From: a virus
IMG/VR virus record: IMGVR_UViG_3300036858_000036
Coordinates: 1-45,985 of that record
Strand: one strand, 5' to 3'
Length of the DNA: 45,985 nt
Under the pieces are notes generated by a model, which ran no database searches, was not told where the DNA came from, and saw nothing but the letters and a program-made list of their open reading frames with translations. Positions 2,350-42,076 of the stretch are shown here, in pieces. Both the position numbers and the translations under genes were made by a program. Numbering within the stretch: the first letter of the stretch is position 1; each line of letters begins with the position of its first letter.

Positions 2350-3240
2350 TCAGCCTTCCTTCTGTCGCTGTACGCGGTATGCAGACTCGATCGTCCGCTC
2401 GATCTCGAACCACCCGAGCCCGGCCTCCTGGGCGGCGGGACCGAGGCTGTCCTTCGCCTCCTGCTCCGACGCGCCGTCCGAGTACATCGAGCGGGCCGCC
2501 CAGAGCAGAGCGTTGTTCCGGTTGCCCTCGCCCGCGGTGCGCACGGTGTGGGCGAGGCCGCCCCAGGCGAACAGGCCGGGACTGCGGGGGGCCTGCGAGC
2601 GCTTCACCGTCGGGCGAGGCGTGACCAGCTTGCGGACCCACTCCGGAGCGGCCTGGGGCGGGCAGCCGGTCCAGAGCTCGTAGTAGGGGCCGGCGGCCGT
2701 CACGGAGCCCTCAGCGAGCACGTACCCGCCCCACTGGCCGCCGTTGCCGCGCACGTCCACCACGCCCTTGACGGGGGACGCCTGGCTTGTCGGGCCCCAG
2801 TACGCGGGCCACTGGAAGTAGAGGTGGGTACCGCCGGAACCGGTCCGGACCGAGTAGGTGAACATCTCCCCGCTCGGGTGGCCGCCACCCAGCTTGTACT
2901 GCATCTCGTCCCAGAGATCCTCGCCGTTGACCCGGGGGCCGTACGCGTCGTGCAGGTAGGCCCACTCGGTGTCCTTCAGGTTCCAGTCGGCCTTCGCGAC
3001 GTCCAGGTCGATGACCAGCAGCTCGGATGGCTTGCACGCGACGCCGATGTTGGCCTGCGGGTCCACCTGGGTCCAGAACTGGGTGATCATCCCGACGTCG
3101 TTCGTGGCCGTCTCGCCCCAGCCGTGGAAGTTCCCGGCCCCGTCGGTGTACCCGGCCAGCCGGTGCGGCACCTTGTCCCCGGCGGCGACCGGGAAGATGT
3201 GCAGCCCTCGCGCCTGGGCCTTCAGGGCGTGCTGGATCAT
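2350..3240 (-). CDS. Bifunctional DNA primase/polymerase (Prim-Pol) domain protein
   Basis: A 296-aa protein from ATG 3240, which has GAGGTG upstream. The N-terminal ~200 residues match the Prim-Pol (archaeo-eukaryotic primase superfamily) pattern: GLHIFPVAAGDKVP near residue 12, the catalytic VIDLD (D78, D80) and the GSGGTHLYF motif (about residues 134-142). A C-terminal helical segment follows (LLWAARSMYSDGAS...). It would make primers for phage DNA synthesis. No helicase domain is fused; a RepA-like ATPase is encoded at 18946, so the two replication functions are on separate operons. Confidence 0.85.
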   Translation of the reverse strand: MIQHALKAQARGLHIFPVAAGDKVPHRLAGYTDGAGNFHGWGETATNDVGMITQFWTQVDPQANIGVACKPSELLVIDLDVAKADWNLKDTEWAYLHDAYGPRVNGEDLWDEMQYKLGGGHPSGEMFTYSVRTGSGGTHLYFQWPAYWGPTSQASPVKGVVDVRGNGGQWGGYVLAEGSVTAAGPYYELWTGCPPQAAPEWVRKLVTPRPTVKRSQAPRSPGLFAWGGLAHTVRTAGEGNRNNALLWAARSMYSDGASEQEAKDSLGPAAQEAGLGWFEIERTIESAYRVQRQKEG

Positions 3241-3242
3241 GG

Positions 3243-3341
3243 TCACCTCGCGATCAGATAGGTAAGGCAGAACAGGAGAATGGGGCAGCAGGCGTAGAAG
3301 ACTCCCATGAGGCAGGAGTCGAAGTCCCACCGGCCCCTCAC
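3243..3341 (-). CDS. 32-aa membrane peptide
   Basis: GTG 3341 has AGGAG eight bases upstream and overlaps the stop of the 43-aa gene by GTGA; its stop lies two bases before the primase ATG. The peptide has a charged start (VRGRWDFDSC) then a hydrophobic segment from MGVFYACCPILLF on, and ends IAR. Probably a single-span membrane peptide; function unknown. Confidence 0.5.
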   Translation of the reverse strand: MRGRWDFDSCLMGVFYACCPILLFCLTYLIAR

Positions 3342-3471: not shown

Positions 3472-3666
3472 TCAGTCCTCCGGTGCGTGCGATACGGCGA
3501 CGACGAACCCGGCCGAGCCGGAGTAGTGGAAGCCTTCGGGGAGGGCGGCGGCCAGGGCCTCGATGCCCAGGTCGACCAGCTCGTCGTTGTCCAGGGTGTC
3601 GGTCTCGTCGTAGACGGCGGTGATGGTCAGGGTGACGACGCGGGTGGGGCTGTAGCGGCTGCTCAT
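3472..3666 (-). CDS. Hypothetical protein, 64 aa
   Basis: Begins MSSRYSPTRVVTLTITAVYD and overlaps the phosphoribosyltransferase stop by ATGA. Alternating beta strands and an acidic helix (LDNDELVDLGIEALAAAL). No family recognised. Confidence 0.65.
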   Translation of the reverse strand: MSSRYSPTRVVTLTITAVYDETDTLDNDELVDLGIEALAAALPEGFHYSGSAGFVVAVSHAPED

Positions 3667-4184
3667 CGGTTGCCCTTTCGGATCCGGGTGCAGAGCGAGC
3701 AGGTGCAGGATGACGCCAGCTTCGGCCCTGGCGCGGCGGGTTGCAGCTCCTCGGGCGCCCAGTCGGGGTCGAAGGGGGTGAACACCCCGAGCTTCTCGTT
3801 GCGGTTGTAGTCCTGATACATGTACTGCCCGACCATGGTCGTGCTGTCCAGGTCGGTGGCCACCACGGCGTCGGCGATCTTCGTGATCACGCGCTCCCGG
3901 GTCCGGCCGGACGCGACGAAGTCGTCCACGAAGACCCAGCGCTCCCCGAGCTCGCCGACCAGGCGGCCCTTGCCGTGGTGGCTGTCGTCGGTCTCCTTGC
4001 GGATCAGGACGAACTTCTTGCCCATCGACAGCGCGAGCGCCGGGATCAAGATGCCGCCCGAGAAGCCGGTGCCGACCAGGGTGTCGAACTCGACCTTCTC
4101 CAGCTCGGCCTTCGCGTTCTCGATCACCTTGGGCAGGTCGAGGATCGCCTCGTCGAAGTAGTACGTGCGGAACCTCGTCGTCAC
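3663..4184 (-). CDS. Phosphoribosyltransferase-like protein
   Basis: A 173-aa protein from GTG 4184, which shares GTGA with the stop of the upstream HNH gene. The PRPP-binding signature of type I phosphoribosyltransferases is present as WVFVDDFVASGRT (residues 83-95), with a GTGFSGG loop near residue 38 and a flexible-loop region containing KETDDSHHGKG. Known family members transfer phosphoribose to bases; this one may salvage nucleotides or act as a nucleotide-binding regulator. The C-terminus carries CTCSLC, a possible metal site absent from typical enzymes. Confidence 0.8.
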   Translation of the reverse strand: MTTRFRTYYFDEAILDLPKVIENAKAELEKVEFDTLVGTGFSGGILIPALALSMGKKFVLIRKETDDSHHGKGRLVGELGERWVFVDDFVASGRTRERVITKIADAVVATDLDSTTMVGQYMYQDYNRNEKLGVFTPFDPDWAPEELQPAAPGPKLASSCTCSLCTRIRKGNR

Positions 4185-4570
4185 TCTTCCTCCAGGTACC
4201 GTAGGGCGGCTCGGAGGTGTTCGAGGTTGCCCTCGAAGTACGCCAAGCCTCGATTGTGGTTTCGGCAGAGCGGGGATCGCAGACACTCGCCGCACGAATA
4301 CCCCTTGCGCGAACAGCAGGAGTGGTCGTGATCGACTACCAGATCCTCCTGCGTTCCGCAGATTGCGCAGCCCGGGGCCAGGAACTCTTCGAGCTGCTGA
4401 ACGGTCATCGAGAACCGGCGGGCCCGGATCTCCTGAGACAGGCGCCCCTTGTCGGCCTGGTACCTGTCCCGGGCCTTCCGCTTGTCGCACCCCTTGCAGA
4501 TGTTGCGGTTGCGGTAGAAGTCATCGACCGACTGCTCGCATCTGCATGAGGGGCAGAGTTTCATCTCCAT
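4181..4570 (-). CDS. Endonuclease VII-like HNH nuclease
   Basis: A 129-aa protein with N-terminal paired cysteines (CPSCRC; CKGC), a second pair (CAICG at 68-72), the DHDH core at residues 80-83 and CRNHNRGL at 102-109. This order is that of recombination endonuclease VII, which cuts branched DNA. A canonical longer copy is encoded at 12777, so this may be a diverged paralogue or a free-standing homing nuclease. ATG 4570 has no ribosome binding site; a TACACT -10-like hexamer ends six bases before it, so a leaderless message is possible. Confidence 0.8.
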   Translation of the reverse strand: MEMKLCPSCRCEQSVDDFYRNRNICKGCDKRKARDRYQADKGRLSQEIRARRFSMTVQQLEEFLAPGCAICGTQEDLVVDHDHSCCSRKGYSCGECLRSPLCRNHNRGLAYFEGNLEHLRAALRYLEEE

Positions 4571-16060: not shown

Positions 16061-16291
16061 TCACGTGAGCGGGAAGTCCCACCCCCAAAGGATATGCCCG
16101 AGGAACCACCCGGCGAAGGAGAGCCAGAGTCCGGCGAAGGCCAGGCGGCCGACCCTGGACGTCCGCACCCTGAAAACCTTCCTGGTCTTCTCCGACAGGG
16201 TGTCCCCGCTGGCGCTGTTCTTGAGCGCGTACGTCTCGAAGGCGATCCCCGCAGCGATGATGCCCGCCCAGGCGATGTCCGAACTGTCCAC
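16061..16291 (-). CDS. 76-aa two-span membrane protein, holin candidate
   Basis: GTG 16291 follows GGGAGGG. IAWAGIIAAGIAFETYAL and LAFAGLWLSFAGWFLGHILW are hydrophobic segments separated by a basic loop (SEKTRKVFRVRTSRVGR). Co-transcribed with the neighbouring small membrane protein; holin or antiholin is inferred. Confidence 0.55.
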   Translation of the reverse strand: MDSSDIAWAGIIAAGIAFETYALKNSASGDTLSEKTRKVFRVRTSRVGRLAFAGLWLSFAGWFLGHILWGWDFPLT

Positions 16292-16326
16292 TTTCCCTCC
16301 CTGGGGTCCGGATCACAGTGTAGGAC

Positions 16327-16354
16327 GTTTAACCCTCGGTGCCGGAGGTATACT
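16327..16354 (+). promoter_or_regulatory. Rightward early promoter (GTTTAA-N16-TATACT)
   Basis: GTTTAA (16327-16332) is 16 bases from TATACT (16349-16354). It precedes the ribbon-helix-helix gene. On the other strand a TACACT hexamer (16317-16322) faces the holin-region genes, so the interval 16292-16392 is probably a divergent control region. Confidence 0.65.
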
Positions 16355-16392
16355 CCAAGGGAACACCCCACCGAACACCAAGGGAGTATCCC
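16355..16392 (+). promoter_or_regulatory. Candidate operator repeats before the ribbon-helix-helix gene
   Basis: CCAAGGGAACACC directly follows the -10, and ACACCAAGGGAGTATCCC occurs again 17 bases later, overlapping the ribosome binding site. The first element recurs after the -10 of the leftward promoter at 26893. Confidence 0.5.
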
Positions 16393-16587
16393 ATGGCCAC
16401 CATCTCCGACACCCTCCGAACCGCGGCGCGGCGCCCCCGGGTCCACGACGCGCAGATCGTCACCAAGCTCCCGAAGCGGGCAAAGGAGCTGGTCAACGAG
16501 ATCGCCCGGGGACGGGGCACCTTCGAGGCGACCATCGTCCGCGAGGCCCTCGCCGAGTACCTGGAGCGACGCGGCTACCGGATGTAA
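16393..16587 (+). CDS. Ribbon-helix-helix (CopG/Arc-like) DNA-binding protein
   Basis: A 64-aa protein from ATG 16393. After a basic N-terminus the core reads VTKLPKRAKELVNEIARGRG then TFEATIVREALAEYLERRG: one strand and two helices with the G-x-T/S turn of the ribbon-helix-helix fold. Such dimers bind short direct or inverted repeats; the repeats around its own promoter are plausible targets. First gene of the rightward early operon. Confidence 0.7.
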   Translation: MATISDTLRTAARRPRVHDAQIVTKLPKRAKELVNEIARGRGTFEATIVREALAEYLERRGYRM

Positions 16588-16628
16588 TACCGGCCCAACA
16601 CCCGAGGCAACAGGAAGGGAATGCCCAG

Positions 16629-17003
16629 GTGGCCATCTATACGTTCTTCCGGGTCCAGTGCGTGTGCGAGCGCTATCTGGCCCCGGAGGCGAGCCCGGAG
16701 GCGACCGTCACCGACTCGACGGACAGCCCGCTCTTCGTCGACTTCTCGTCGGCGTACGATGGGGCTGTCCGTCGAGGCTGGTCTTCGTACCCCCTGACCT
16801 GCCCCGACTGCGCGGCACAACGAGCGAAGAGGCAGGCGATGAACAACAAGATCGCGGGTCTGTACCTGAATCTGGCGAAAGCCATGAACGCCCTGGAGGA
16901 AGCGGGCGAAGACCCCCAACCCGGCACGGCGTTCGTGGACGGAGAGCACGGCGGCATCTTCTGGAACCCGGACGCAGAACGCTGGACGGTAAGCCAGGCA
17001 TAA
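16629..17003 (+). CDS. Hypothetical Cys-containing protein, 124 aa
   Basis: GTG 16629 (AGGAAGGGA upstream). VAIYTFFRVQCVCERYLAPE and later CPDCAAQRAKRQ provide four cysteines, as in a split zinc ribbon; the C-terminal half is a helix plus beta-hairpin (GTAFVDGEHGGIFWNPD). No family recognised. Confidence 0.65.
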   Translation: MAIYTFFRVQCVCERYLAPEASPEATVTDSTDSPLFVDFSSAYDGAVRRGWSSYPLTCPDCAAQRAKRQAMNNKIAGLYLNLAKAMNALEEAGEDPQPGTAFVDGEHGGIFWNPDAERWTVSQA

Positions 17004-17011
17004 GGAGATTG

Positions 17012-17197
17012 ATGGACGATCACATCAACGGAGCCTCGGCGGAAATCTTCGCCAACCCGGACACCCGCAAAGTCGTCACACGCTTCTACCACCCGCACAC
17101 GGGCGCAACGGTCCTGGAGCTCCACCTCGACCCCGAACAGGCCCGCGAATACGCCCTCAACCTGACCCGAGCGTCGATCACCATCGAAGGAGACTGA
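17012..17197 (+). CDS. Hypothetical protein, 61 aa
   Basis: ATG 17012 follows AAGGAG. MDDHINGASAEIFANPDTRK then beta strands and a helix (DPEQAREYALNLTRA). No family recognised. Confidence 0.65.
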   Translation: MDDHINGASAEIFANPDTRKVVTRFYHPHTGATVLELHLDPEQAREYALNLTRASITIEGD

Positions 17198-17200
17198 CTC

Positions 17201-17938
17201 ATGGCCGTCCCGAAGGATGCCGGCCTGTCCCACCCGGCCGACATCGGCAGAATCGAGCTGCACTACCCGATCAAGAAGAGAGGCGAACGGCGCCGCCTCA
17301 GCCCGAACAGCGCCGGCATCGAATGGCTCGAAGCCTCCACCGAGACCGAAACCGAGCTGCTCGAATACGCAGGAGACTGGGCGGGCGACGCAAGCCTTCA
17401 AGCGATGCGTGCCCTCGGCTGGGCGAGGGCACGCATCGGCGGCCTGTACCCGCGACCGATGTTCCAGCTGGTGGCGACGGGGGAGGGGGTGCCGGAAAGC
17501 GGCTCGCGCTACCGCGACCCGTGCCCCGACTGCGATGACTGGTCCCGGACCGCCCGCTGTGCAGAACACCACGACCGCGACGGCATCCGCGGGCTCAAGA
17601 TGGGAGGGGTGAGGCAGATGGAGAGATCCGAACTCCCCCTTGGCTACTTCTCGGCGTCCCTCAGCCCCGACCGGGGTGTGCCAGTACCGGCAGCCTCGGT
17701 CAACATCTACGACCGGATCACCCAGGCGGACATCCCAGCCTGCACGTGCTCGCTGTGCCAGTCCCCACAGGCCGGGCCTGTCGGGTACATCGACCGGCGG
17801 TTGGCACGGATCGATGCGCTGCCGGACGCGTCAATAACATTCGAAGGAGCCGTAGAAGTGGAGATCGACAGTGAAACCGTTCAAGGGGTTCGTTCGTTCA
17901 CGATTTACACAGGGCCCCCTCGTGAAAACCCCTCCTGA
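17201..17938 (+). CDS. Hypothetical Cys/His-rich protein, 245 aa
   Basis: ATG 17201 follows AAGGAG by good spacing. The middle has CPDCDDWSRTARCAEHH, a probable zinc site, and later CTCSLC. The rest is a mixture of charged helix and strands. No family recognised; a DNA-associated role is possible given its operon (RHH, HTH, RepA). Confidence 0.65.
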   Translation: MAVPKDAGLSHPADIGRIELHYPIKKRGERRRLSPNSAGIEWLEASTETETELLEYAGDWAGDASLQAMRALGWARARIGGLYPRPMFQLVATGEGVPESGSRYRDPCPDCDDWSRTARCAEHHDRDGIRGLKMGGVRQMERSELPLGYFSASLSPDRGVPVPAASVNIYDRITQADIPACTCSLCQSPQAGPVGYIDRRLARIDALPDASITFEGAVEVEIDSETVQGVRSFTIYTGPPRENPS

Positions 17939-18338
17939 GCCCCGGCCGGCGACCATCCTCGGCCCCTACGGGGAGGGCTACTGCCGGGTGTGCCGGTTCA
18001 TCGAACCCCTCACCAGGCAGGGCGTGATAGCCGAGCACGCCCGGTCGAACGGCGGCTGGCCGGGGCCGGGCGAACGCTGCAAGGGGAGCTTCAAGGCCCC
18101 GCCGAAAGACACCCCCTACTTCTCGCGGCTGTCGGCGTTCAGGGCGACACCGCGCAAGGTGGAGTGCCCGATGTGTCATCGACAGGTGACCGTGCTCGCC
18201 GGTGGCCGGATCAGCGGGCACAACATCGCCGCCACCACGATCACCCTGTGCGGGGCCACCCTGTGCGAGGCCGGCGGGCGTACGGTCACCACGGCGGCCT
18301 CGATGCGGGCGAGGGGTCACGGCGGCGAACGCGGATAG
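17871..18338 (+). CDS. Zinc-binding hypothetical protein, 155 aa
   Basis: GTG 17871 has GGAG seven bases upstream; it lies inside the preceding gene in another frame for 68 bases. GTG 17922 is an alternative start. Two metal-like modules: CRVCRF with a following H..C, and CPMCHRQ with H and two Cys (ISGHN, CGATLC). No family recognised. Confidence 0.6.
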   Translation: MKPFKGFVRSRFTQGPLVKTPPEPRPATILGPYGEGYCRVCRFIEPLTRQGVIAEHARSNGGWPGPGERCKGSFKAPPKDTPYFSRLSAFRATPRKVECPMCHRQVTVLAGGRISGHNIAATTITLCGATLCEAGGRTVTTAASMRARGHGGERG

Positions 18339-18353
18339 CCGCATCGCGAAACC

Positions 18354-18381
18354 GGATCCCCCGGTGTACACTGGGGGATCC
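18354..18381 (+). promoter_or_regulatory. 28-bp near-perfect palindrome, candidate operator
   Basis: GGATCCCCC on the left is the reverse complement of GGGGGATCC on the right, and the centre GTGTACAC is itself palindromic; only one base pair out of 14 mismatches. It lies 28 bases before the HTH gene. TACACT inside it could also be a -10. Confidence 0.7.
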
Positions 18382-18409
18382 TGCATCTCTCTGCACGAAA
18401 GGGGACCCC

Positions 18410-18943
18410 ATGGAGGGGCTCGCGACCACTCGGGAAGTCTCCGACTACCTCAAAGTCAAGCCGAACACCCTGGACCGCTGGGCATCCGACGGAACCGGCC
18501 CCCGGTTCACCAAGGTGAACGGGCGAAGGCGATACCGCTGGTCCGACATCCGGGCGTACGCCGGAGAGCAGGGACAGGCCGGCCAGCCGCAATACACCTG
18601 CCGAACCTGCCGACGGGAGGTCACCTCCGGCGGGCACCTGGTGGTCGACATGGGCCAGGTCGCTCGCGTCGAGCGGGCGAGCGAAGAGTTCGACGCCTAC
18701 CTCGCCTCAAAACCCTTCCCGGTCATCGAGGGGGACGACTGGAACCGGATGCCCGACCTGGCCTCATGGGGAGTGTTCCACCACGCCTGTGATCCCGCAC
18801 CAGAGCGGAACGGGTACTTCATCGAGATCGAGCGGGTGGCGACCTGGCCCGCACTCGTCCGACTCATCGGGCACCTGGCCGAAAAGAAGTGGCTGAAGCA
18901 CACCGACCTGGCGGCGCTGCTCCGCTCGATCGCCGGGGAGTGA
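18410..18943 (+). CDS. HTH (MerR/excisionase-type) protein
   Basis: A 177-aa protein. Residues 1-50 form a winged helix of the HTH_17 type: LATTREVSDYLKVKPNTLDR then WASDGTGPRFTKVNGRRRYRW. A CRTCRR pair near residue 65 is followed by an unassigned domain. It is directly upstream of the RepA-like gene (stop two bases before its GTG) and downstream of the palindrome, so it could bind that site or the iterons and act as initiator or autoregulator. Confidence 0.8.
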   Translation: MEGLATTREVSDYLKVKPNTLDRWASDGTGPRFTKVNGRRRYRWSDIRAYAGEQGQAGQPQYTCRTCRREVTSGGHLVVDMGQVARVERASEEFDAYLASKPFPVIEGDDWNRMPDLASWGVFHHACDPAPERNGYFIEIERVATWPALVRLIGHLAEKKWLKHTDLAALLRSIAGE

Positions 18944-18945
18944 CC

Positions 18946-20382
18946 GTGGAGTGGGACATCTTCCAGCCGGGCACGCTCCCGCTGGGCCCGGATATCGATC
19001 CCGAGACCCGTCGCATCGTGCTGGACGCCGCCGAGAAGCGACAGAGGGAGACGGCGGAGCAGGAGGAGCAGGCCAAGTTCGACGAGCACGAGCGGCGCAC
19101 CCAGGCGGCCCGAGACAAGGTCAGGAGAGAGCGAGAGGAGGCCGACCTCTCCGGCACACTGTCGCCGGAAGCCGAGACATTCTACTCGCTGAAGCTGAAG
19201 CCCCGGCTGACCGAGGCGCCCGAGTACCAGGCCAAGATCAAGATGCCGGTGGTGCAAGGGCTGTTCAACAAGAACTCCCTGTGCTGGACCGTTGGATCAT
19301 CCGGCACGTTCAAGTCGTTCATGACGGCCGACCTTGCCTTCCGGTACGGATCCGAAGACATGGACTACTACGGCCGGAAGATGACGCACGGACGCTCGCT
19401 GATCATCGTGGCCGAAGGGGAAGACGCCTACGCCCACCGGAAGCAGGCGTGGGAAAAGCAGTACGACCGCGAGGTCAAGAACGTGACCTTCTACCCCGGA
19501 GCCCTCCAGTTGGCCGACGTCGCCAAAGAGATGCCGGCACTATTGCACGAGCTGCGTCAGGAGAAAGAGGCAGGTCGAGAGTACGGGCTGATCATCTTCG
19601 ACACCCAAGCGATGTGCACCGTCGGCGTGGACGAGAACAAGAGCGAGATGAACCTCGTGATCAACGTCCTCCACCGGATCCGGCAGGAAACCGGAGCCTG
19701 CGTGCTGATCGTTCACCACTTCGGCAAGGACGAACGGAAGGGCATGCGCGGCAGCTCGATGCTGTACGCGGCGGCCGACACCGTGCTCGTGCTGAAGCGT
19801 TCGGACGACTCGATGGAGGTCAAGCTGTCAACCGCCCAGGGGGACGAGGGCAAGCAGAAGGACAATCCCACCGAGAAGGACTTCCTGACCCTGGAGATGA
19901 TGGTCCACACCGTTGGCGAAGACTACTTCGGAGACCCCGTCACCAGCCTGGCGGCCGTCGAAGGAAGCGGGGCACCGGTCGACGCCGCCGACGAGTCAGA
20001 CATCGCCGAACCCATCCCGGCGCTGTCCCCGCGGCAGGCGTACTACCTACAGGAGCTGTCCGCCTACCAGCTCGACGGGGTGAGCGCGTCCGACTTCGCG
20101 AAGGACATGGATCGCGAGGAGAGCACCGAGCCGGCGGGCGGAAGGGTGACCCGGCAGGCCGCTCGGAAGGTGTGGGTGCAGGAGCTGAAACCCAAAGGAC
20201 TGGTCGAACTCGTGCCGAAGCAAGCCTCGAAATGGAGGGTTACGCCCAGGGGGGCGGCAGCCATCATGAGGGACCTCAAGGAGGGTCGGGAGACCGGCGA
20301 AAAGTGGGTCGAGAGGGCCCGGAATCATAGGGTTCGGGGCAGGGTTCGCGAACCCTATGGAGAGACGATTCCCGAACCCTAG
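18946..20382 (+). CDS. RepA-like AAA (RecA-fold) ATPase
   Basis: A 478-aa protein from GTG 18946, chosen over an in-frame ATG at 18889 inside the HTH gene because GGGGAG lies just upstream. Walker A is VGSSGTFKS, Walker B is GLIIFDTQ, followed by VLIVHHFGKDERKGMRGSS, the pattern of hexameric RepA/RecA-superfamily ATPases. A coiled, charged N-terminus (~residues 20-60) and a C-terminal winged-helix-like region (ASDFAKDMDREEST...) flank it. Likely replicative helicase or helicase loader. Its 3' end runs into the iteron cluster. Confidence 0.85.
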   Translation: MEWDIFQPGTLPLGPDIDPETRRIVLDAAEKRQRETAEQEEQAKFDEHERRTQAARDKVRREREEADLSGTLSPEAETFYSLKLKPRLTEAPEYQAKIKMPVVQGLFNKNSLCWTVGSSGTFKSFMTADLAFRYGSEDMDYYGRKMTHGRSLIIVAEGEDAYAHRKQAWEKQYDREVKNVTFYPGALQLADVAKEMPALLHELRQEKEAGREYGLIIFDTQAMCTVGVDENKSEMNLVINVLHRIRQETGACVLIVHHFGKDERKGMRGSSMLYAAADTVLVLKRSDDSMEVKLSTAQGDEGKQKDNPTEKDFLTLEMMVHTVGEDYFGDPVTSLAAVEGSGAPVDAADESDIAEPIPALSPRQAYYLQELSAYQLDGVSASDFAKDMDREESTEPAGGRVTRQAARKVWVQELKPKGLVELVPKQASKWRVTPRGAAAIMRDLKEGRETGEKWVERARNHRVRGRVREPYGETIPEP

Positions 20383-20505
20383 CGAACCCTAAGCGAACCC
20401 TGCTCTGACCAGGGCGAACCCTAAGCGAACCCGACCGAACCCTATCGAGCCGAACCCTGAACCCTGCTGGGACCTGACCCTAGGGAGGGTCCCGCAGTAG
20501 GGTTC
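20328..20505 (+). repeat. Iteron cluster CGAACCCTA, candidate replication origin
   Basis: About ten full or partial copies of (G)CGAACCCTA occur in 178 bases: direct copies at 20349, 20373, 20383, 20394, 20415, 20426, 20436 and 20451, with inverted copies (TAGGGTTC) at 20328, near 20341 and at 20498. A hairpin (GGGACC 20469-20474 / GGTCCC 20488-20493) lies within. The array begins inside the last codons of the RepA-like gene, as in iteron plasmids. Confidence 0.8.
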
Positions 20506-20537
20506 ACCCGGTTCGCAGGTTCAGGAAGAAGGAGAAA

Positions 20538-21062
20538 TTGATCAAGGTAGAACCCTGCCGAGGCTGTGGGCGAAGTCTGTTCATCCACCCGATCGCCAAC
20601 CTGGTCGTCCGACTGGAGATGGAGCCCCTGGACGCAGCGCAGGCGACCCAAGCCCTCCTGGGCGGCCGGAATCTCTGGCGCGTGACTGCGACAAGCGTGA
20701 CCGGAGTCCGACCGGCCGAGCTGACCGCGCTGGCTCAGCGAGGCGTGACCGAGGGACCGCACGTGTGCCAGGAGCACCGGTGTGCGGCCGTCTCCCGGCC
20801 CGGCGGGGCCACCCCGGTACCCGAGGCCAATCCGGTCCCAAAAGGCCGCCAGAGCGCGCCTGTGGCCGTTTCGACTCTGTCCTCGGCGCGCTCGACGGAA
20901 CGATCTTCTGCACGGTCTGCGGGGATCCGCCGTACTGACCGGGCCCAGCCGTGCGAACGGTGCCGCAGACCGGTCGCGCTCGACGGGCCGGCACCGTACG
21001 TCGCCGTGGAGCTCGGAGCGACGGTAGTGTGGGCCGTCCACGACGAATGCGCGAGGAGGTGA
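20538..21062 (+). CDS. Hypothetical zinc-binding protein, 174 aa
   Basis: TTG 20538 follows AAGGAG. CRGCGRS near the start and CERCRRPVALDG near the end are split by a Ser/Arg/Pro-rich linker; the last region ends VWAVHDECARR. Two small zinc ribbons on a flexible linker suggest a nucleic-acid or protein adaptor next to the origin. Not assigned to a family. Confidence 0.6.
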   Translation: MIKVEPCRGCGRSLFIHPIANLVVRLEMEPLDAAQATQALLGGRNLWRVTATSVTGVRPAELTALAQRGVTEGPHVCQEHRCAAVSRPGGATPVPEANPVPKGRQSAPVAVSTLSSARSTERSSARSAGIRRTDRAQPCERCRRPVALDGPAPYVAVELGATVVWAVHDECARR

Positions 21063-21148
21063 ACGGATCCGTGTGTCCTCACTGTGGAGCACCGGTTCCG
21101 CCCAACGCAGGATTCTGCGGAGCGTGCGGAGCCCCCATCGGGCACTGA
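21059..21148 (+). CDS. 29-aa zinc-ribbon microprotein
   Basis: GTG 21059 shares GTGA with the preceding stop, with GAGGAGG just upstream (ATG 21047 is possible). CPHCGAPVPPNAGFCGACG is a complete C-x2-C...C-x2-C zinc ribbon, the whole protein being one ribbon. Confidence 0.65.
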   Translation: MNGSVCPHCGAPVPPNAGFCGACGAPIGH

Positions 21149-21155
21149 GAGCACG

Positions 21156-21192
21156 GAAAGCCCCCTTCACCCTTTCGGGCGAGGGGGCTTTC
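21156..21192. terminator. Terminator between convergent operons
   Basis: GAAAGCCCCCT (21156-21166) pairs with AGGGGGCTTTC (21182-21192), perfect 11-bp stem with T-rich ends on both strands. It separates the rightward early operon from the leftward genes ending at 21208. Confidence 0.9.
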
Positions 21193-21207
21193 ATGCGGTC
21201 ACCGCGG

Positions 21208-21396
21208 TCAGAACACGGGGGCCGACCAACCGGCCTGATCGTACGCCTCCTGCGCTTCGATCGCCTCGCGATATCGGTTGTAGCAGTCGTCGGAGCAGAA
21301 ATTGGACTGGTCGGCGTGGCCCTCGGACGGGACCTGGCCCTCGATGGGGTCGAACTCGTCGGTGCACTGCGGGCAGAAGTGGACCGGGGCGAGCAT
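21208..21396 (-). CDS. Zinc-ribbon protein, 62 aa
   Basis: ATG 21396 follows GAGGAGG. FCPQCTDEF and FCSDDCYNRYREA form a C-x2-C...C-x3-C metal site like the treble-clef FCS-type fingers. Function unknown. Confidence 0.7.
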   Translation of the reverse strand: MLAPVHFCPQCTDEFDPIEGQVPSEGHADQSNFCSDDCYNRYREAIEAQEAYDQAGWSAPVF

Positions 21397-21398
21397 GA

Positions 21399-21533
21399 TC
21401 AGTCCTCCTCGCGGATGGACTCAGGCCGGACGGGGGGATCGGGCCGGAGCGCATCCGGTACGTAGATGTCCCGCTCGGACTTGCCGGTGAGCGTGGCCCA
21501 CTGGCGACGGTAGGACTCGGCTGTCTCATGCAT
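21399..21533 (-). CDS. Hypothetical peptide, 44 aa
   Basis: MHETAESYRRQWATLTGKSE then a Pro/Asp-rich end. Good start at ATG 21533 immediately after the previous stop. No family recognised. Confidence 0.5.
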   Translation of the reverse strand: MHETAESYRRQWATLTGKSERDIYVPDALRPDPPVRPESIREED

Positions 21534-21535
21534 GA

Positions 21536-21703
21536 TCAGTGCCTCGATTCTCCGGGCAGGTGGTGGACTGTCGTGCCGTGCGGAGCGTACGGGCCTCGCT
21601 CGGCATCGTGCCGGTGTTCGATCTCGTCGACCTCCTGGGCCGACTTTTCCCGGGGCAGCGATCGAAGGAAGATCTCGAAAGCTTCCCAGGTGGACGTGTC
21701 CAT
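21536..21703 (-). CDS. Hypothetical protein, 55 aa
   Basis: ATG 21703 follows GGAGGTGAATC. Begins MDTSTWEAFEIFLRSLPREK, charged helix, then a His-rich end (HHLPGESRH). No family recognised. Confidence 0.6.
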   Translation of the reverse strand: MDTSTWEAFEIFLRSLPREKSAQEVDEIEHRHDAERGPYAPHGTTVHHLPGESRH

Positions 21704-21706
21704 GAT

Positions 21707-22093
21707 TCACCTCCATGCGTAGTAGACGTTCTTGCCTGCCATGATGACCAGATCGGCCCTCACGACTGGTTCCAGGGTCTCGCTGTCGACGAACGTCGGG
21801 CCCTTCCGCGGGTCGTACACCGCCTGGCGGTACCCGGCCGGACGGGGTGCCTGCGCGTAGCTCCAGTCGGATCCGACCCGCAGGATCTCCTCGCCGATCA
21901 CCCAGGCGTGGACGTTCCGGACGCCCTCGGTGATGCAGCGTTGCCGACCCCGCTCGTGGACCTTGAACTCGACGTTCTTGATCGAGACCCACGAGGCGTA
22001 CCGGACGTGCCGGCCGGGGACCTTGACGCTGATCACGTCGGGGGTCTCGCCGGACTGGAGCCGGGGGAGGTGGGTGTGCAGCCACACGTTCAT
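21707..22093 (-). CDS. Hypothetical protein, 128 aa
   Basis: ATG 22093 follows AAAGGAAG. MNVWLHTHLPRLQSGETPDV and many alternating hydrophobic strands suggest a beta-rich fold. No family recognised. Confidence 0.65.
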   Translation of the reverse strand: MNVWLHTHLPRLQSGETPDVISVKVPGRHVRYASWVSIKNVEFKVHERGRQRCITEGVRNVHAWVIGEEILRVGSDWSYAQAPRPAGYRQAVYDPRKGPTFVDSETLEPVVRADLVIMAGKNVYYAWR

Positions 22094-23643: not shown

Positions 23644-24582
23644 CTACTCCTGTCGACTTGTGATCGCCGCACGCCAGGCGGCCGGAGTGCGAGCCCTTGA
23701 GCCGCTGAGCTCTCGCGCCCGTCGCTGGGCTGGCAGAGCGGACGTGACGAACCTCTCCGAGTCCTCCTCCGGCACCCACAGCAGCTGGCACTCGCGTGCC
23801 TTGCCACCGTGGCAGACGATGCCTCGACCATCCTCCTCGGGGGCACTGATCGGCTTCCCGCAGTCCGAGGCGAGCCAACGCCATGCCTGCGGACTGTGAC
23901 CGATCAGGATCCGGGTGCCGAAGTTCTCGATCACCTCGGCTCCACCGGTCGCACGGAATGATGCCATCTGCGCGAAACCGACGATGTGGACCTTGACCGC
24001 CCGACCCATGAACGTCGCGTCCATGAACCCCTGGGTGGCTGTGTAGTCACCCTCGTGCAGTCGTTTGTCCAGTGCTTTGAGGCTGGACATCGTGGCGTTC
24101 ATCTCCTCGAACACCACCACGATCCTCGGTCCGACCGGGGCGGCCTCAAGCGGACCATCCCACTCGTCGACGATCACGTTCCGGCGGTGAACCTCTCGAC
24201 CCAGCTGGACCAGGGTGCCGCCTATGTCCTGCGCGGACTTCGCGTAGTGGACGTTCGGCGCCAGATTCCTGGCCCATCGGTGCGAGTGACGCTTGATGTC
24301 CAGGAACACGACCCGGTCGCCCTTCGCCAGCCTTTGGACCGCCAGCGAGCGAGCCACGGCCGACTTCCCCCGACCCGTGGGGGCCGAGACGAGCACGTGC
24401 GGGGATTCGGACTCCAGATCCACCGTGATCGGATTGCCGAGCGCGTCAACGCCCAGCAGCACCCTCGACTCACCGCAGTCCCCGATCCAGTCTGTCGCCT
24501 CGCTAAGCGGCAGGATGGACGGGAAGCCCTTCTGCGGGGTACTCACCCCTGTGTACGGATTCGAACCCTGTAGCCAGTCCAC
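23644..24582 (-). CDS. FtsK/SpoIIIE-like DNA translocase ATPase
   Basis: A 312-aa protein from GTG 24582 (GGGAGGAAACC upstream). Walker A is SAPTGRGKSAVARSL, followed by VVFLDIKRHSHRW, and Walker B is RIVVVFEEMNATMS; the downstream VHIVGFAQMASFRATGG is typical of FtsK/SpoIIIE/Tra ATPases. No membrane segment or gamma domain is visible. Such proteins pump double-stranded DNA and occur in conjugative actinomycete elements and some phages; its role here is unknown. It is too small for a classical division translocase. Confidence 0.85.
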   Translation of the reverse strand: MDWLQGSNPYTGVSTPQKGFPSILPLSEATDWIGDCGESRVLLGVDALGNPITVDLESESPHVLVSAPTGRGKSAVARSLAVQRLAKGDRVVFLDIKRHSHRWARNLAPNVHYAKSAQDIGGTLVQLGREVHRRNVIVDEWDGPLEAAPVGPRIVVVFEEMNATMSSLKALDKRLHEGDYTATQGFMDATFMGRAVKVHIVGFAQMASFRATGGAEVIENFGTRILIGHSPQAWRWLASDCGKPISAPEEDGRGIVCHGGKARECQLLWVPEEDSERFVTSALPAQRRARELSGSRARTPAAWRAAITSRQE

Positions 24583-24612
24583 GGTTTCCTCCCTTCCGGA
24601 CGGGTAAAGCTG

Positions 24613-24660
24613 CGTGGCCCCGCCGGGAATCGAACCCGGCTTCACACCGCCTGTGGGGCC
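24613..24660 (-). ncRNA. Truncated tRNA-like minihelix A
   Basis: Minus strand: GGCCCC, a 14-base linker, then stem GCCGGG, T-loop TTCGATT, stem CCCGGC and GGGGCC followed by ACG. Acceptor-like and T-stem segments stack to 12 bp, exactly the length of a tRNA acceptor plus T arm, but the linker replaces D and anticodon arms. It lies between the ATPase gene (24582) and the next gene (24696). Confidence 0.5.
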
Positions 24661-24695
24661 TGACCGGTCATTGGGGGGACCGGCACCCCTTGCGG

Positions 24696-24953
24696 TCAGC
24701 CGTTCGGGTGGGTCTTGGACCAGACCGATGCGACGCCCCGTTCGTTCAGCCACTTGTTGACGTCCCGGAGTGCGTCCCGGTATGTCCGGCGGACCGTGAT
24801 GCCGTCCCGCTGGGCGGCCGACAGAGGGCTGATCCGGGTGAGGGCGAGCCCGGTGTCGATTTTCAGGATCAGGCCCCTGCGGATCGTGAGCACGCGGTAG
24901 ACCGTGACGTCAGACCCGGTGATCAGAGTCCCTGACTGCGAACGCTCGATCAT
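24696..24953 (-). CDS. Hypothetical protein, 85 aa
   Basis: ATG 24953 has AAAGGTGG upstream, the same leader as the neighbouring gene; GTG 24974 (GTGA overlap) is an alternative start. MIERSQSGTLITGSDVTVYR, then strands and a basic helix (TVRRTYRDALRDVNKWLNER). No family recognised. Confidence 0.6.
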   Translation of the reverse strand: MIERSQSGTLITGSDVTVYRVLTIRRGLILKIDTGLALTRISPLSAAQRDGITVRRTYRDALRDVNKWLNERGVASVWSKTHPNG

Positions 24954-26368: not shown

Positions 26369-26674
26369 TCAGCAGCGACCCTCGCAGTTCACGCAGCCCT
26401 CGCCGGGGACGTGGTTGCAGTGCCCCAGGTGGGCGGTGTGCCCCCGCTGGGCGAGGATGGTGAGCGCGCTGGCCAGGCTGACAGGGTCGTTGGCTTGGAG
26501 GCCGTCCCGGTGCCCGACCAGCTGGAAGCCGGTCCCGCCGGTCTGGCATGCGGCGTTCTGGTGGGCGCTGAGGCGACGGTAGGCGAGCTCCCATTCGGGC
26601 GTGGGCTGGGTGTGGGCGGTGCGGACGTACTCGTCGGTGTAGCGCTTGTTCAGGCTGACGGGGCGTGCGTTCAT
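26369..26674 (-). CDS. Hypothetical protein, 101 aa
   Basis: ATG 26674 follows GAGGAG. MNARPVSLNKRYTDEYVRTA, helical middle, and a C-terminus with HCNHVPGEGCVNCEGRC, a Cys/His cluster likely to bind zinc. No family recognised. Confidence 0.65.
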   Translation of the reverse strand: MNARPVSLNKRYTDEYVRTAHTQPTPEWELAYRRLSAHQNAACQTGGTGFQLVGHRDGLQANDPVSLASALTILAQRGHTAHLGHCNHVPGEGCVNCEGRC

Positions 26675-36509: not shown

Positions 36510-36697
36510 TGAAGATCACGATCGAGGTCAACGGCTGCAAGATCGAGCTGACCGAGGAGATGTTCGAGCAGTTCACCTTCTCGCTGCCCCGGGACGTGCA
36601 CCACTACGAGGGGAATCGCAACGAGCTCGGCCGGGCGCACATGATGATGGGCGGCATGTTCAAGGACGGCGTCACACCCGAGTGGGTGGAGGCGTAG
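36509..36697 (+). CDS. Hypothetical protein, 62 aa
   Basis: ATG 36509 overlaps the adaptor stop. MKITIEVNGCKIELTEEMFE then HMMMGGMFKDGVTPEW. Small neck-region protein of unknown role. Confidence 0.6.
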   Translation: MKITIEVNGCKIELTEEMFEQFTFSLPRDVHHYEGNRNELGRAHMMMGGMFKDGVTPEWVEA

Positions 36698-37159
36698 ATG
36701 GCCATTCAGTCGCAGGACCTGATCGACCGCATCGCGAGTCACGCCGCGACTCTCGGTGTGTTCGACCGGGTCAACCAGCACGAGCCGAAGTCGGCGCCCG
36801 GCCGTGGCCTCACCTGCGCGGTGTGGATCGACAGGATCGAGCCGGCGCGCGGGCGGAGCGGGCTCACGGCGACCGACGCCCGGGTCGTTTTCAATGTCCG
36901 CGTCTACACGAACATGCTGCAAAATCCCCAGGATGCCATCGATCCGTCGGTCATGAACGCGGTCGACCTTCTCTTCGAAGCCTATTCGGGTGATTTTCAG
37001 CTGGGGGGCGAGACCCGGTGGATCGACCTGTTGGGCGCTACTCAGGGACATCCGCTCTTCTCGCAGTCGGGCTACATCAACATCGACAACCGGGTGCAGC
37101 GGGTCATGACCATCACGGTTCCTGTCATCGTCGAGAACGCCTGGACACAGGCCCCTTAA
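36698..37159 (+). CDS. Tail terminator/neck protein, 153 aa
   Basis: ATG 36698 directly follows the previous stop. MAIQSQDLIDRIASHAATLG, beta strands VFNVRVYTNML and VQRVMTITVPVIVENAW. The size, order and pattern fit the tail terminator family, which caps the tail tube. Confidence 0.7.
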   Translation: MAIQSQDLIDRIASHAATLGVFDRVNQHEPKSAPGRGLTCAVWIDRIEPARGRSGLTATDARVVFNVRVYTNMLQNPQDAIDPSVMNAVDLLFEAYSGDFQLGGETRWIDLLGATQGHPLFSQSGYINIDNRVQRVMTITVPVIVENAWTQAP

Positions 37160-37172
37160 GGAGGAAAGGATC

Positions 37173-37910
37173 ATGGCAAAGCAGTCCGGGCTCGGCGACC
37201 AGCTCTTCATTGGGGGCTACGACATCGGCGCCGACATCAACTCGATCAGCTCGCTCAGCACGCCCCGGGAAACCCTGCCGGCCACCGCCATCACCCAGTC
37301 GGCCAACGCCCGGCTTTTCGGCCGCCGGGACGCCTCGGCCGAGTTCGTCTCGTACTTCGACGACGCCGACGACGCCGCACACGAGGCGCTGAAGGCCCTG
37401 CCCAGGACCGACACCCAGATCATGTACTGCCGGGGCGAGGGAATCGGATCCGAGGCGTTCTGCATGGTCGGCAAGCAGGTCGACTACAACCCCAACCGGG
37501 GCGACGACGGCTCGCTGCTGTTCACCACGAGCGCGCAGTCGAACGGCTTCGGCGCAGACTGGGCGGATCAGCTCACGGCGGGCAAGGACACCCACGCCTC
37601 CGGTGCCAGCACGACCGGCCTGGACACCGCGGCGGCGGCCAGCTTCGGGTGGCAGGCGTACCTCCAGGTGTTCTCGCTCGGCTCCGGCACGGCAGAGATC
37701 ACCATCGAGGACTCGGCCAACAACGTCGACTGGCTGACCCTGTCCGGCGCCGAGTTCACCGACGCGACCGCTCGCACCTTCGAGCGGATCCAGTCCAGCT
37801 CGGCCACCGCGACCGTCCGGCGCTACCTCCGGGTGACCACGAGCGGCACGTTCACCGACCTGGTGTTCGCCGTCGCGATCAACAAGAACGACAACACGAG
37901 GGCCCTGTGA
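37173..37910 (+). CDS. Major tail protein (tail tube)
   Basis: A 245-aa protein after AAGGAGGAAAGG. N-terminal two thirds match siphophage tail-tube patterns (GLGDQLFIGGYDIGADINSI; ARLFGRRDASAEFVSYFDD). The last ~80 residues (WQAYLQVFSLGSGTAEITI; LRVTTSGTFTDLVF) form an extra Ig-like domain that would protrude from the tube. Confidence 0.8.
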   Translation: MAKQSGLGDQLFIGGYDIGADINSISSLSTPRETLPATAITQSANARLFGRRDASAEFVSYFDDADDAAHEALKALPRTDTQIMYCRGEGIGSEAFCMVGKQVDYNPNRGDDGSLLFTTSAQSNGFGADWADQLTAGKDTHASGASTTGLDTAAAASFGWQAYLQVFSLGSGTAEITIEDSANNVDWLTLSGAEFTDATARTFERIQSSSATATVRRYLRVTTSGTFTDLVFAVAINKNDNTRAL

Positions 37911-38359
37911 TGACCAGACCCCTGAACCGCATCACCCCCAACCTCCCGTCCAGGGCGTACCAGACCTTCCAGGTCAAGGCCCCGAAGGGCGGCTACACCG
38001 AGGCCACCTGCGAGCAGGTCGAGTGCGAGCAGTACGCGCGCGGCTGGCGGATCCAGGTGGACCTGAATACCGAGCTGGGCCAGAGGCAGGCCCACTACAT
38101 CAAGCACCTGTCGGGCCGCTCGTACCGGGTGGTCGACCAGCGGGACGGCCTGGCGACTCTGGAGTTCCGGCCGGGCCAGCCGTGCTTCCAGGAGCACAGG
38201 GTGCGCAACGATCTCCCGGAGACTTTCCTTGTCAGGGGGGGCGACTACCGGGGAAACCCGCTCGGCACGAAGGCGCGGGTGCACACGCGTGCGGAGTATT
38301 GGGTGGAGGAGTTTGCCGAGAACCAGGACAAACTCAAGACCCAGGTTGAGCGAGGCTGA
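37910..38359 (+). CDS. Hypothetical tail-region protein, 149 aa
   Basis: ATG 37910 shares TGATG with the tail-tube stop. MTRPLNRITPNLPSRAYQTF, then CEQVECEQYARGW and beta strands. It seems to belong to the tail cassette, upstream of an antisense HNH gene; no motif identifies its role. Confidence 0.6.
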   Translation: MTRPLNRITPNLPSRAYQTFQVKAPKGGYTEATCEQVECEQYARGWRIQVDLNTELGQRQAHYIKHLSGRSYRVVDQRDGLATLEFRPGQPCFQEHRVRNDLPETFLVRGGDYRGNPLGTKARVHTRAEYWVEEFAENQDKLKTQVERG

Positions 38360-38360
38360 C

Positions 38361-38867
38361 CTAGTGCTGCTGACCTCGCTTGCGCTTCCACCCTCCGGGG
38401 TCGGTTCGGCGCGCGTTGTTCTCGGCGCGGGTCAGCCAGCGACAGTTCTCCGGGCAGTAGTCTCCGTCCGGGTCGCGCCGGTCGATCTGGTACTCCAGGC
38501 CAGGGCGCTCGCCCATGTCTTCGAGGAAGTTCTCGAAGGACGCCCACCGCTCGCAGACCTTGACTCCGCGAGCACCGTAATACTTGTACGACGCGTTGCG
38601 GGTGTCCTCGCAGCGCCCGTGCATGGAGGACCAGGACTTGTAGGTCGGGGTCCTCGACCAGCCGTGCTTGAAGGACGAAGCCTTCTCGCCGGTGTACGAA
38701 GCCAGCCGTTCCCGGGTTTCGAGGGTGTGAGCCTTCCCCTGCATGGGGTGGGCGATCTTGGAGTTGTGGCCAGCGATGAACTTGCTGACCCGGTTCCGAC
38801 GGTTGTCGACGGCGGCATACTGTCCGCAACCGCAGGCGCAAAGCCTGGGGGTAAGGTTCCTGTCCAT
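38361..38867 (-). CDS. HNH homing endonuclease, antisense in the tail operon
   Basis: A 168-aa protein on the minus strand from ATG 38867. N-terminal Cys motif (CACGCGQ), a NUMOD3-like DNA-binding segment (GKAHTLETRERLA), then the HNH core: WSSMHGRCEDTRNASYKYYG, VCERWASFENFLEDMGERPG, IDRRDPDGDYCPENCRWLTR. This is the free-standing phage homing endonuclease type. It is inserted between two rightward tail genes in opposite orientation and has its own TGTATGCT promoter-like element a few bases upstream. Confidence 0.9.
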   Translation of the reverse strand: MDRNLTPRLCACGCGQYAAVDNRRNRVSKFIAGHNSKIAHPMQGKAHTLETRERLASYTGEKASSFKHGWSRTPTYKSWSSMHGRCEDTRNASYKYYGARGVKVCERWASFENFLEDMGERPGLEYQIDRRDPDGDYCPENCRWLTRAENNARRTDPGGWKRKRGQQH

Positions 38868-40308: not shown

Positions 40309-42076
40309 CCGAGTAAACGTCAACATCAACGTCAACGACCACTCCCGTGCGGGGCTGGCCGCGCTGCGTCAGAATATGAACCGCATGCAGCGTGATGTCC
40401 GTCGCGCCGGCGGGCGGATCAACTTCAATGTCACCGTCGACCCGGGCACCTCCCGCCGAGACCTGCGCCGCATCCAGCGCCGGCTCCGCGGCCAGCCGGT
40501 GACGATCACCACCCGGCTCGACCCGCCCACACCTCCCCCGCGTACCATGCGTCAGCGGATCATACGCGGCCTGGGGCGGGCCGTTACGCTACCGATACGG
40601 CTTTCCGCCCGCGGACTACGTTCGTCCGTTCGCGACCCTGTCAGGTCGATCGGCGGGTTCGTCTCCGGGGTGCTCCAGGACGGAGTCGGCCAGGGGCTGA
40701 TACAGGGGTTCACTCGCGGTGGCCCTGTGGGCTTTGCCGCCCTGGGCGCAATCCTGCTGGCTGCCGCCTCGGTGTTGGGTGCGGCCTTGGCCGGCGCTCT
40801 GGTTCTGGCGTTCGGTGGCGGCATCGTGGCCCTGGGTGCCATGTGGGCGGCCAAGTCGGACGAGTTCAAGAAGTCGTTCGAGAAGATGACCGACCACATG
40901 GCCGAGGAGATGCGGAAGGTCGCCGAGCCTCTCGTTCCGGTCATGGTGCGCGCAACGAAGCAGCTCACGAAGGCGTTCGACGTCTTGGCGCCCAAGCTTC
41001 GGGAGTTCTTCGCCGAGGCCGCCCCGGAGCTGAACGACTTCTTCGACTCCATGCTGAACGGCTTCCGCAGGTTCGGCGAACGCGCCTGGGAGCCGATGAC
41101 GAGCGCGTTCCAGCATTTCCTCGACGCCTTCGCCCCCCACTGGGAGGGCTTCATGGGCGACCTGGGCAGCTCGTTCGGAGCCCTGGGGCGGACGGTGAGC
41201 CGGCACTCGACCGAGATATCCCTGGCGCTGCGCGTTGTCCTCGGCATCTTTGTCGCCCTGGTCGACATCGTCAACTTCCTGGCGAACACCTGGGTCAACA
41301 TGATCAAGATAGCCACCTACTCGGTGGGCTTGTTCATGCGGACGATGGCCGACGTCATGGACACCGCGGCTGCCGCATTCGACGTGCTTCTGCGCGCCAT
41401 CGGCCCGTTCGCCAAGGTCATGGGCCTGGGCGACGCCGTCAAGATCGCCCGCAGGAATCTCGCGGAATGGCGCGAGAACACCGTCGAAGGGCTCCGCGCG
41501 GCCGGACAGAGTGCCATGGACTTCGGCAAGAAGCTGGACCGGGCGAACAAGATCCGCCAGCTGAAGGTGGACATCCAGGGCTACCGGGCGCGACTCGCCC
41601 AGGCCAGGGCGGATCTGAAGCGGACGGCCAGCCAGAAGGCCAGGGCCAAGCTCCAGGCCGACATCTCCGACCTGAAGGCAAAGATCAGAGCGGCCAACGC
41701 CGACCTGAACGCGCTGAACGGAAGGACCGCCTACACCACGGTTGTCACCCACTACGACAACATCGAGACGTTCCGGGCCGCCCACGGGCGCGCGATGGGC
41801 GGCATCATGGGCGCTGCGAACGGCGGAGTCCGCAGCAACCTCACCCTGGTCGGCGAGCAGGGGCCGGAGATGGTGCAGCTGCCCGCGGGCGCCAGGGTGC
41901 GCACGGCCGGCGACACCCGCAGACTCATGGGTCAGGGCGGTGGTGGCGGCGGTCAGACGGTCGTCCGATTCGACGCCGCGCCGGGCAGCGTCAACCGCAT
42001 GCTCTTGAGGATCATGCGCGAGGCGGTTCGCAACGAGGGTGGAGACTTCGACCGAGGCGTTGGGATCAAGAGGTAG
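40301..42076 (+). CDS. Tape measure protein
   Basis: A 591-aa protein, ATG 40301 overlapping the chaperone end. Helical, with a hydrophobic segment FAALGAILLAAASVLGAALA near residues 147-170 and following AGALVLAFGGGIVALGAM, then long amphipathic helices, a basic coiled region (RLAQARADLKRTASQKARAK) and a Gly-rich C-terminus. It sets tail length; 591 residues predict a short to medium tail. Confidence 0.85.
   Translation: MANRVNVNINVNDHSRAGLAALRQNMNRMQRDVRRAGGRINFNVTVDPGTSRRDLRRIQRRLRGQPVTITTRLDPPTPPPRTMRQRIIRGLGRAVTLPIRLSARGLRSSVRDPVRSIGGFVSGVLQDGVGQGLIQGFTRGGPVGFAALGAILLAAASVLGAALAGALVLAFGGGIVALGAMWAAKSDEFKKSFEKMTDHMAEEMRKVAEPLVPVMVRATKQLTKAFDVLAPKLREFFAEAAPELNDFFDSMLNGFRRFGERAWEPMTSAFQHFLDAFAPHWEGFMGDLGSSFGALGRTVSRHSTEISLALRVVLGIFVALVDIVNFLANTWVNMIKIATYSVGLFMRTMADVMDTAAAAFDVLLRAIGPFAKVMGLGDAVKIARRNLAEWRENTVEGLRAAGQSAMDFGKKLDRANKIRQLKVDIQGYRARLAQARADLKRTASQKARAKLQADISDLKAKIRAANADLNALNGRTAYTTVVTHYDNIETFRAAHGRAMGGIMGAANGGVRSNLTLVGEQGPEMVQLPAGARVRTAGDTRRLMGQGGGGGGQTVVRFDAAPGSVNRMLLRIMREAVRNEGGDFDRGVGIKR

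Follow-up and report, generated by a model that had tools for sequence, protein, structure and literature searches.

A candidate iteron origin overlapping the 3' end of a predicted initiator helicase gene in a phage related to Streptomyces phage Dagobah

Where does a phage that encodes no DNA polymerase begin to replicate, and which of its proteins recognizes that site? These questions are raised by a repeat array in an IMG/VR virus record of 45,985 bases (this whole stretch is termed the window herein), which represents a soil phage related to Streptomyces phage Dagobah, a cultured relative with S. coelicolor as its host. A look through the literature turned up no mapped origin in the Dagobah-related phage group; the Dagobah paper names none, and it mentions neither iterons nor a primase. 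An earlier note on this DNA had proposed a plasmid-like iteron origin beside a RepA-like ATPase, with the helix-turn-helix (HTH) protein encoded upstream as a candidate binder. Judged from its sequence and conservation, the array is most likely the replication origin of the phage, and a winged helix of the ATPase probably binds it. The candidate replicon covers about 2.2 kb (18340 to 20560); its elements, and the primase gene encoded elsewhere, are as follows.

18354 to 18381, no strand assigned: 28-bp near-perfect palindrome GGATCCCCCGGTGTACACTGGGGGATCC with an embedded TACACT (a possible -10 box), found by script and unique in the window.
18410 to 18943, plus strand: gene for an HTH_17 (BldC/excisionase-like) protein of 177 amino acids with a C-terminal Zn-ribbon-like part (Pfam HTH_17, E 1.5e-8).
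18946 to 20382, plus strand: gene for a RepA-type RecA-fold ATPase/helicase of 478 amino acids with a GTG start (Pfam AAA_25, E 2.4e-23), the proposed initiator helicase.
20011 to 20283, plus strand: C-terminal winged-helix domain of the ATPase (residues 356 to 446; AF2 model and fold match), the proposed iteron-binding domain.
20328 to 20466, no strand assigned: iteron array of CGAACCCTA-type copies plus TGAACCCTG at 20458, defined by repeat counts, phasing, and copy-by-copy conservation in the relative L003.
20458 to 20506, no strand assigned: stem-loop with an inverted pair of iterons, TGAACCCT ... AGGGTTCA, in its arms (z -3.4 for a DNA fold of -16 kcal/mol).
2350 to 3330, minus strand: gene for a Prim-Pol primase of 326 amino acids (Pfam Prim-Pol, E 5e-28; weak PriCT_1), the proposed primer maker.

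The earlier count of about ten repeats in 178 bases was confirmed: the region from 20328 to 20506 holds 11 copies of CGAACCCTA with at most one mismatch, six of them exact (20328 on the minus strand, 20349, 20373, 20383, 20415, and 20436) and five with one mismatch (20340 and 20498, both on the minus strand, 20394, 20426, and 20451). The inverted copy at 20340 yields a perfect palindrome, AGGGTTCGCGAACCCT (20341 to 20356), and the last of the three inverted copies, at 20498, belongs to the stem-loop. In the whole window, 16 copies were counted at this threshold versus 7.0 expected (standard deviation, 2.5), a number reached by none of 100 shuffles. A single 200-bp stretch contains 11 copies of the heptamer AGGGTTC; elsewhere in the window no 7-mer scores above 4, and the maxima in 15 simulated windows were 4 to 7; the array is thus restricted to a single locus and not scattered through the genome. 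The iteron core is 9 bp long with a spacing of 10 to 11 bp, and the six central direct copies, at 0, 10, 21, 42, 53, and 63 bp from 20373, share one face of the helix (vector strength of 0.985 at 10.5 bp). Since the TAG stop codon of the ATPase gene (20380 to 20382) falls within a copy, the array begins inside the ATPase coding region, as had been noted. No clear AT-rich melting region was found near the array (A+T of at most 55%, with a peak around 20520 to 20559). DnaA boxes with one mismatch number 6 in the window versus 6.45 expected, none of them within 400 bp of the array, and neither a sigma-70 promoter nor a T-tailed intrinsic terminator was found at the array. GC skew had been suggested as a check: its cumulative minimum does lie within 2 kb of the array (at 18,500 in the window and at 40,500 in Dagobah, relative to the array of each), but it coincides with changes of the gene strand and is therefore given no weight.

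The window aligns collinearly, with a circular permutation, to nearly the whole genome of Dagobah (47,301 bp, terminal repeats of 1,187 bp), so that it is close to complete; the terminases are 80.6% identical and the Prim-Pol proteins 61%. Because the window is an almost complete genome, the missing DNA polymerase is credible: as had been claimed, families A, B, and III-alpha gave no match in the record, and they were likewise not found in Dagobah. That a Prim-Pol is encoded away from the array also proved correct. A search for relatives yielded no genome contig and only two viral ones, of which the first is 100% identical across the 13.4 kb that were compared and the second 74%. Several other parts of the window were seen in passing. 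A counterpart of the Dagobah terminal repeat lies near 26426 to 26521, a minus-strand protein at 23644 to 24753 has weak FtsK/HerA-like ATPase similarity under the Pfam cut-offs, and a phosphoribosyl transferase-like phage protein (phrog_2068) is encoded at 3663 to 4490, near Prim-Pol. Thermobifida phage P1312 has a related terminase (60%) and proved of no use for the origin question.

In L003, a relative of the window with an ATPase that is 73% identical overall, the array is retained copy by copy, the non-coding copies and the spacer CTCTGACCAGGG included. The central copies lie at 0, 10, 21, 42, 53, and 64, and the DNA after the stem-loop diverges from the window. The ATPase stop codon of L003 is located about 45 bases deeper in the array than that of the window (4134 to 4179 in L003), so that the overlap between array and gene and the repeat-encoded protein tail are longer. 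Identical codons between the two amount to 15 of 18 in the coding part of the array and 195 of 310 elsewhere (p 0.06), which is only suggestive of synonymous conservation. The stem-loop folds in L003 as well (z -3.2), where the sequence of the apical stem differs and folding is retained. Another inverted pair, at 20326 to 20336 and 20349 to 20359, folds strongly in the window (z -6.7); it carries two mismatches in L003 and was dropped as a conserved hairpin.

The cultured phage Dagobah has the same arrangement.

36657 to 38740 of the Dagobah genome: counterpart locus, with HTH_17 gene, ATPase gene, array, and stem-loop in the same order.

The Dagobah ATPase (37123 to 38658) is annotated as 'RadB-like' and, like that of L003, has a longer and repetitive tail. 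Its array is built from a different motif, GAACCGGT, spans the last ATPase codons, continues past the stop codon, and is the densest repeat cluster of the Dagobah genome. The stem-loop after it (z -3.3) has TGAACC/GGTTCA arms that are comparable to those of the window and of L003. The Dagobah layout and the L003 array together support the claim of an iteron-type origin beside a RepA-type ATPase.

Which protein might bind the iterons was approached by comparing the two candidates encoded at the locus. The ATPase has the Walker A sequence GSSGTFKSF, matches phrog_2850, phrog_906 (DNA polymerase/primase), and phrog_3228 (replicative helicase-primase), and has relatives annotated as 'helicase RepA family'; no solved structure searched by sequence matches it, and the AF2 model of the full-length protein is poor and unusable (pLDDT of 43). 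The AF2 model of the C-terminal piece has the order H-H-H-b-b-H (mean pLDDT of 64.8; 59 to 86 across the domain), with IdeR/DtxR/MarR as the nearest solved folds (best E 0.03, probability 0.98; weak statistics). Among 50,697 phage records, Dagobah is the only match to this winged helix (tblastn E 1e-11), and a comparison of the window with Dagobah gives 20% identity for the ATPase core and about 35 to 36% for the C-terminal domain (E 2e-16); the C-terminal domain is therefore the part of the ATPase that stays recognizable along with the array. Between the window and L003, which share their iterons, the winged helix is 91% identical, with the recognition-helix region RVTRQAARKVWVQELKPKG unchanged (core, 77%), whereas the HTH_17 protein is only 39% identical, which makes the helicase the better candidate binder. 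Conservation of the winged helix alone is no proof, since L003 may simply be a nearer relative; it is the low identity of HTH_17 that carries the argument.

The proposal that the HTH protein binds the iterons nevertheless deserves weighing. The array would still be an origin, and a BldC-like head-to-tail filament of HTH_17 would recruit the helicase in a RepC-like role. The HTH gene lies directly upstream of the ATPase gene in the window and, as short homologues at the matching place, in L003 (64 amino acids) and Dagobah (61 amino acids), and the protein is BldC-like (NCBIfam HTH_BldC, E 3e-7, under its cut-off). BldC, which reads DNA with Arg30, binds head to tail on direct repeats of 9 bp (PMC5859096), the length of the iteron core as well, but BldC sites require an AT-rich AATT element, in the operator pattern AATTXXXX(C), that the iterons do not have (PMC5859096). 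If HTH_17 read the iterons, the window and L003 should agree and Dagobah should differ. The opposite is seen: identity to Dagobah, with its different iterons, is 46% and thus above that to L003, and the residue aligned with BldC Arg30 is Arg in the window and in Dagobah and Asn in L003. We do not favor this reading and regard it as unlikely. A more plausible target of HTH_17 is the palindrome that precedes the HTH gene. It has counterparts in L003 (2408 to 2429) and Dagobah (36593 to 36629) with different arms, and the cores across the three phages (TACACT / TACCCT / TACTCT) fit TACNCT. In the window, it is the probable promoter/operator of the HTH-ATPase operon, which is probably autoregulated, and HTH_17 is probably the operon regulator; the segment named earlier for cloning, 18400 to 20530, excludes this element.

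Other readings give the array a different role altogether. It could be an operator or an anti-terminator/terminator that controls the gene starting at 20538, since the stem-loop separates two genes of the same direction and lies 30 bp ahead of the following start. Repressor arrays of comparable size exist. The lack of a promoter-like or T-tailed terminator site at the array, its confinement to one locus, and the fact that operators seldom overlap helicase gene ends in unrelated phages make a regulatory site rather improbable. Phased direct repeats and an excisionase-like HTH would also fit a site for partition (a centromere) or for excision (Xis/attP) in a prophage or phage-plasmid, and Dagobah is predicted to be temperate by a machine-learning tool (PMC7650747). 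However, neither a tyrosine integrase nor a serine recombinase (PF07508) was found in the window, and ParA (PF13614) was found in neither the window nor Dagobah; we consider such a site very improbable. Finally, GAACCC encodes Glu-Pro, and the tails of the L003 and Dagobah ATPases are longer and repetitive, as expected for a low-complexity protein tail with no role in DNA. Most copies in the window are non-coding, some are inverted, and they are retained in L003, which leaves this last explanation with hardly any credibility.

The reading that we prefer, and hold to be probable on balance, is that the array is an origin in the 3' end of the gene for its own initiator helicase, with the winged helix as the binding domain. 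The promoter/operator at 18354 to 18381 would drive the operon of the HTH_17 regulator and the RepA-type helicase. The C-terminal winged helix would bind the phased CGAACCCTA iterons at and after the gene end and gather helicase rings there. Nearby DNA would then open, possibly aided by the iteron-armed stem-loop at 20458 to 20506, the helicase would unwind it, and the separate Prim-Pol would make primers. The host replicative polymerase would copy the genome, since the phage encodes none. What the sequences show directly is the array with its phasing and conservation, the winged-helix homology, the recurrence in Dagobah with another motif, and the lack of the three polymerase families; origin function, the binding and melting steps, primer synthesis by Prim-Pol, reliance on the host polymerase, and a theta mode are inferred. 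It counts against the model that self-loading of a RecA-fold helicase at a double-stranded origin requires a melting step, which the model does not explain.

To see how common this layout is, we surveyed 350 bp around the stop codon at 24 helicase loci that sequence searches with the ATPase of the window or of Dagobah had retrieved. A repeat array beyond every shuffle was present at 10 of the 24 loci, with unrelated motifs, and not present at the other 14, so the layout is not universal. Besides the window, L003, and Dagobah, the array-bearing loci are those of Roseobacter phages CRP-823 and CRP-811 (CTACAAA, 11 copies after an AAA_25/RecA-like helicase gene), Microcystis phage MinS1 (GGGACGA, 10 copies) and Verrucomicrobia phage P8625 (ATCGGCA, 8 copies), both directly after such a gene, two PICI-like elements (AAGTGAG and TGCCGCA, 6 copies each at the helicase end), and Caenibius plasmid p1 (TGCGGAA, 12 copies directly after an AAA ATPase gene; L082, 3490 to 3750). 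PolA was found in none of the 6 array-bearing phages tested and in 7 of 10 phages that lack an array. The Fisher p is 0.011, and it becomes 0.026 when CRP-823 and CRP-811, which are nearly identical, are treated as one phage, in a small sample picked by search rank and with statistics that ignore phylogeny. The PICI-like elements L078 and L079 have a RepA-type helicase with iterons at its 3' end (the L078 protein and the window ATPase are 33% identical across 251 amino acids). In this slot, the related EcCICFT073 has a gene annotated as DNA primase family, an apparent initiator swap. The genomic neighbors are ssb, PerC, and capsid genes in L078 and a capsid gene in L079.

The survey suggests a rule: where a phage has a RepA-type helicase and a Prim-Pol or Toprim primase and lacks PolA, iterons would be expected at the helicase stop codon. 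It is possible, although we advance it tentatively, that this is a recurrent origin design of phages without a DNA polymerase, in which the RepA-type helicase is its own iteron-binding initiator through a winged helix, with sites in the 3' codons plus a stem-loop. The winged helix/iteron module would persist while the ATPase core changes and would have moved between phages, satellites, and plasmids across several phyla, with iterons of unrelated sequence. If this holds, RecA-fold helicases that load themselves and carry their own origin recognition would represent a separate mode of replication initiation, and natural iteron/winged-helix pairs (CGAACCCTA versus GAACCGGT) would allow the recognition code to be worked out.

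A scan for three copies of CGAACCCT found 47 viral stretches, most of which appear to be simple or coding repeats without an ATPase homologue, and three of the 47 led to an unrelated initiator-like family. Its proteins start with MGIR, MGIK, or MGVR and have an N-terminal helix-turn-helix and a C-terminal domain; the iterons lie within the linker-coding part of the protein's own gene, like in lambda O. Three members (L009/L051, L018/L054, and L010/L058) have CGAACCC arrays and the recognition helix xRVSN, and five (L052, L053, L055, L056, and L057) have CGCACCC arrays and the recognition helix SRVSH or SRTSH, an apparent natural specificity switch. Iterons within the initiator gene are a likeness of lambda O to the window as well.

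The plasmid-like character claimed earlier holds only loosely, as far as the iterons beside a RepA-type ATPase are concerned. Classic iteron plasmids have iterons of 17 to 22 bp, a DnaA box, and an initiator of the Rep_3 type, none of which is seen here; for the initiator, there is no Pfam match among the seven proteins scanned from 16094 to 22085. The window system is closer to PICI/SaPI rep-ori and to RSF1010. In SaPIs and PICIs, a proven origin directly follows the initiator gene on its 3' side (PMC6092414). The SCCmec protein Cch2 uses its C-terminal domain to bind iterons that lie right after its gene (PMC7581432). Like SaPIbov1 and EcCICFT073, the window has short iterons directly 3' of an initiator helicase gene and, as proposed here, would use a separate primase and the host polymerase; in Cch2 and SaPI Rep, the helicase C-terminal domain binds the iterons, as is predicted for the winged helix at residues 356 to 446. 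Unlike PICIs, which are helper-dependent satellites, the window is a complete tailed phage with its own terminase and no integrase, and it differs from PICIs and SaPIs in its RecA-fold AAA_25 helicase, the overlap of iterons with codons, and the stem-loop with iteron arms. The paired iteron sets flanking an AT-rich stretch that are typical of PICIs and SaPIs were not found in the window, where A+T reaches at most 0.55 near the array and the richest part does not lie between sets of iterons. EcCICFT073 was rejected as a homologue and serves as an analogue only, the tested gene being annotated as DNA primase family and not as RepA-type.

RSF1010 (IncQ; RepA/RepB'/RepC) combines a RepA helicase, a primase, and iterons (PMC4234260) and shares with the window the RepA-type RecA-fold helicase, the separate primase, small hairpins, and, as proposed, the use of the host polymerase. 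The window differs in having Prim-Pol in place of RepB', 9-bp instead of 20-bp iterons, and a winged helix on the helicase; no RepC-like initiator was recognized beside the helicase, only HTH_17 upstream. In pRN1 (orf56/orf904), the gene for a small regulator precedes that for a replication protein whose C-terminal part is a winged helix, and an origin stem-loop lies just downstream (PMC4234260). This order is also seen in the window, but pRN1 has no iterons and a fused Prim-Pol/SF3 helicase where the window has a separate Prim-Pol and AAA_25 ATPase. In phage P4 alpha, a winged-helix domain binds the phage iterons (PMC4234260), and the primase is of the bacterial (Toprim) type, unlike the window Prim-Pol. 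The Dagobah locus matches the window in gene order, homologous winged helix, and position of array and stem-loop and differs in iteron motif and ATPase core. Because defining features of each of the compared families are missing, the window system is a variant and not a member of any of them; with a RecA-fold RepA-type helicase that carries a winged helix, a separate Prim-Pol, iterons that overlap codons, and a stem-loop, it appears to be a new variant.
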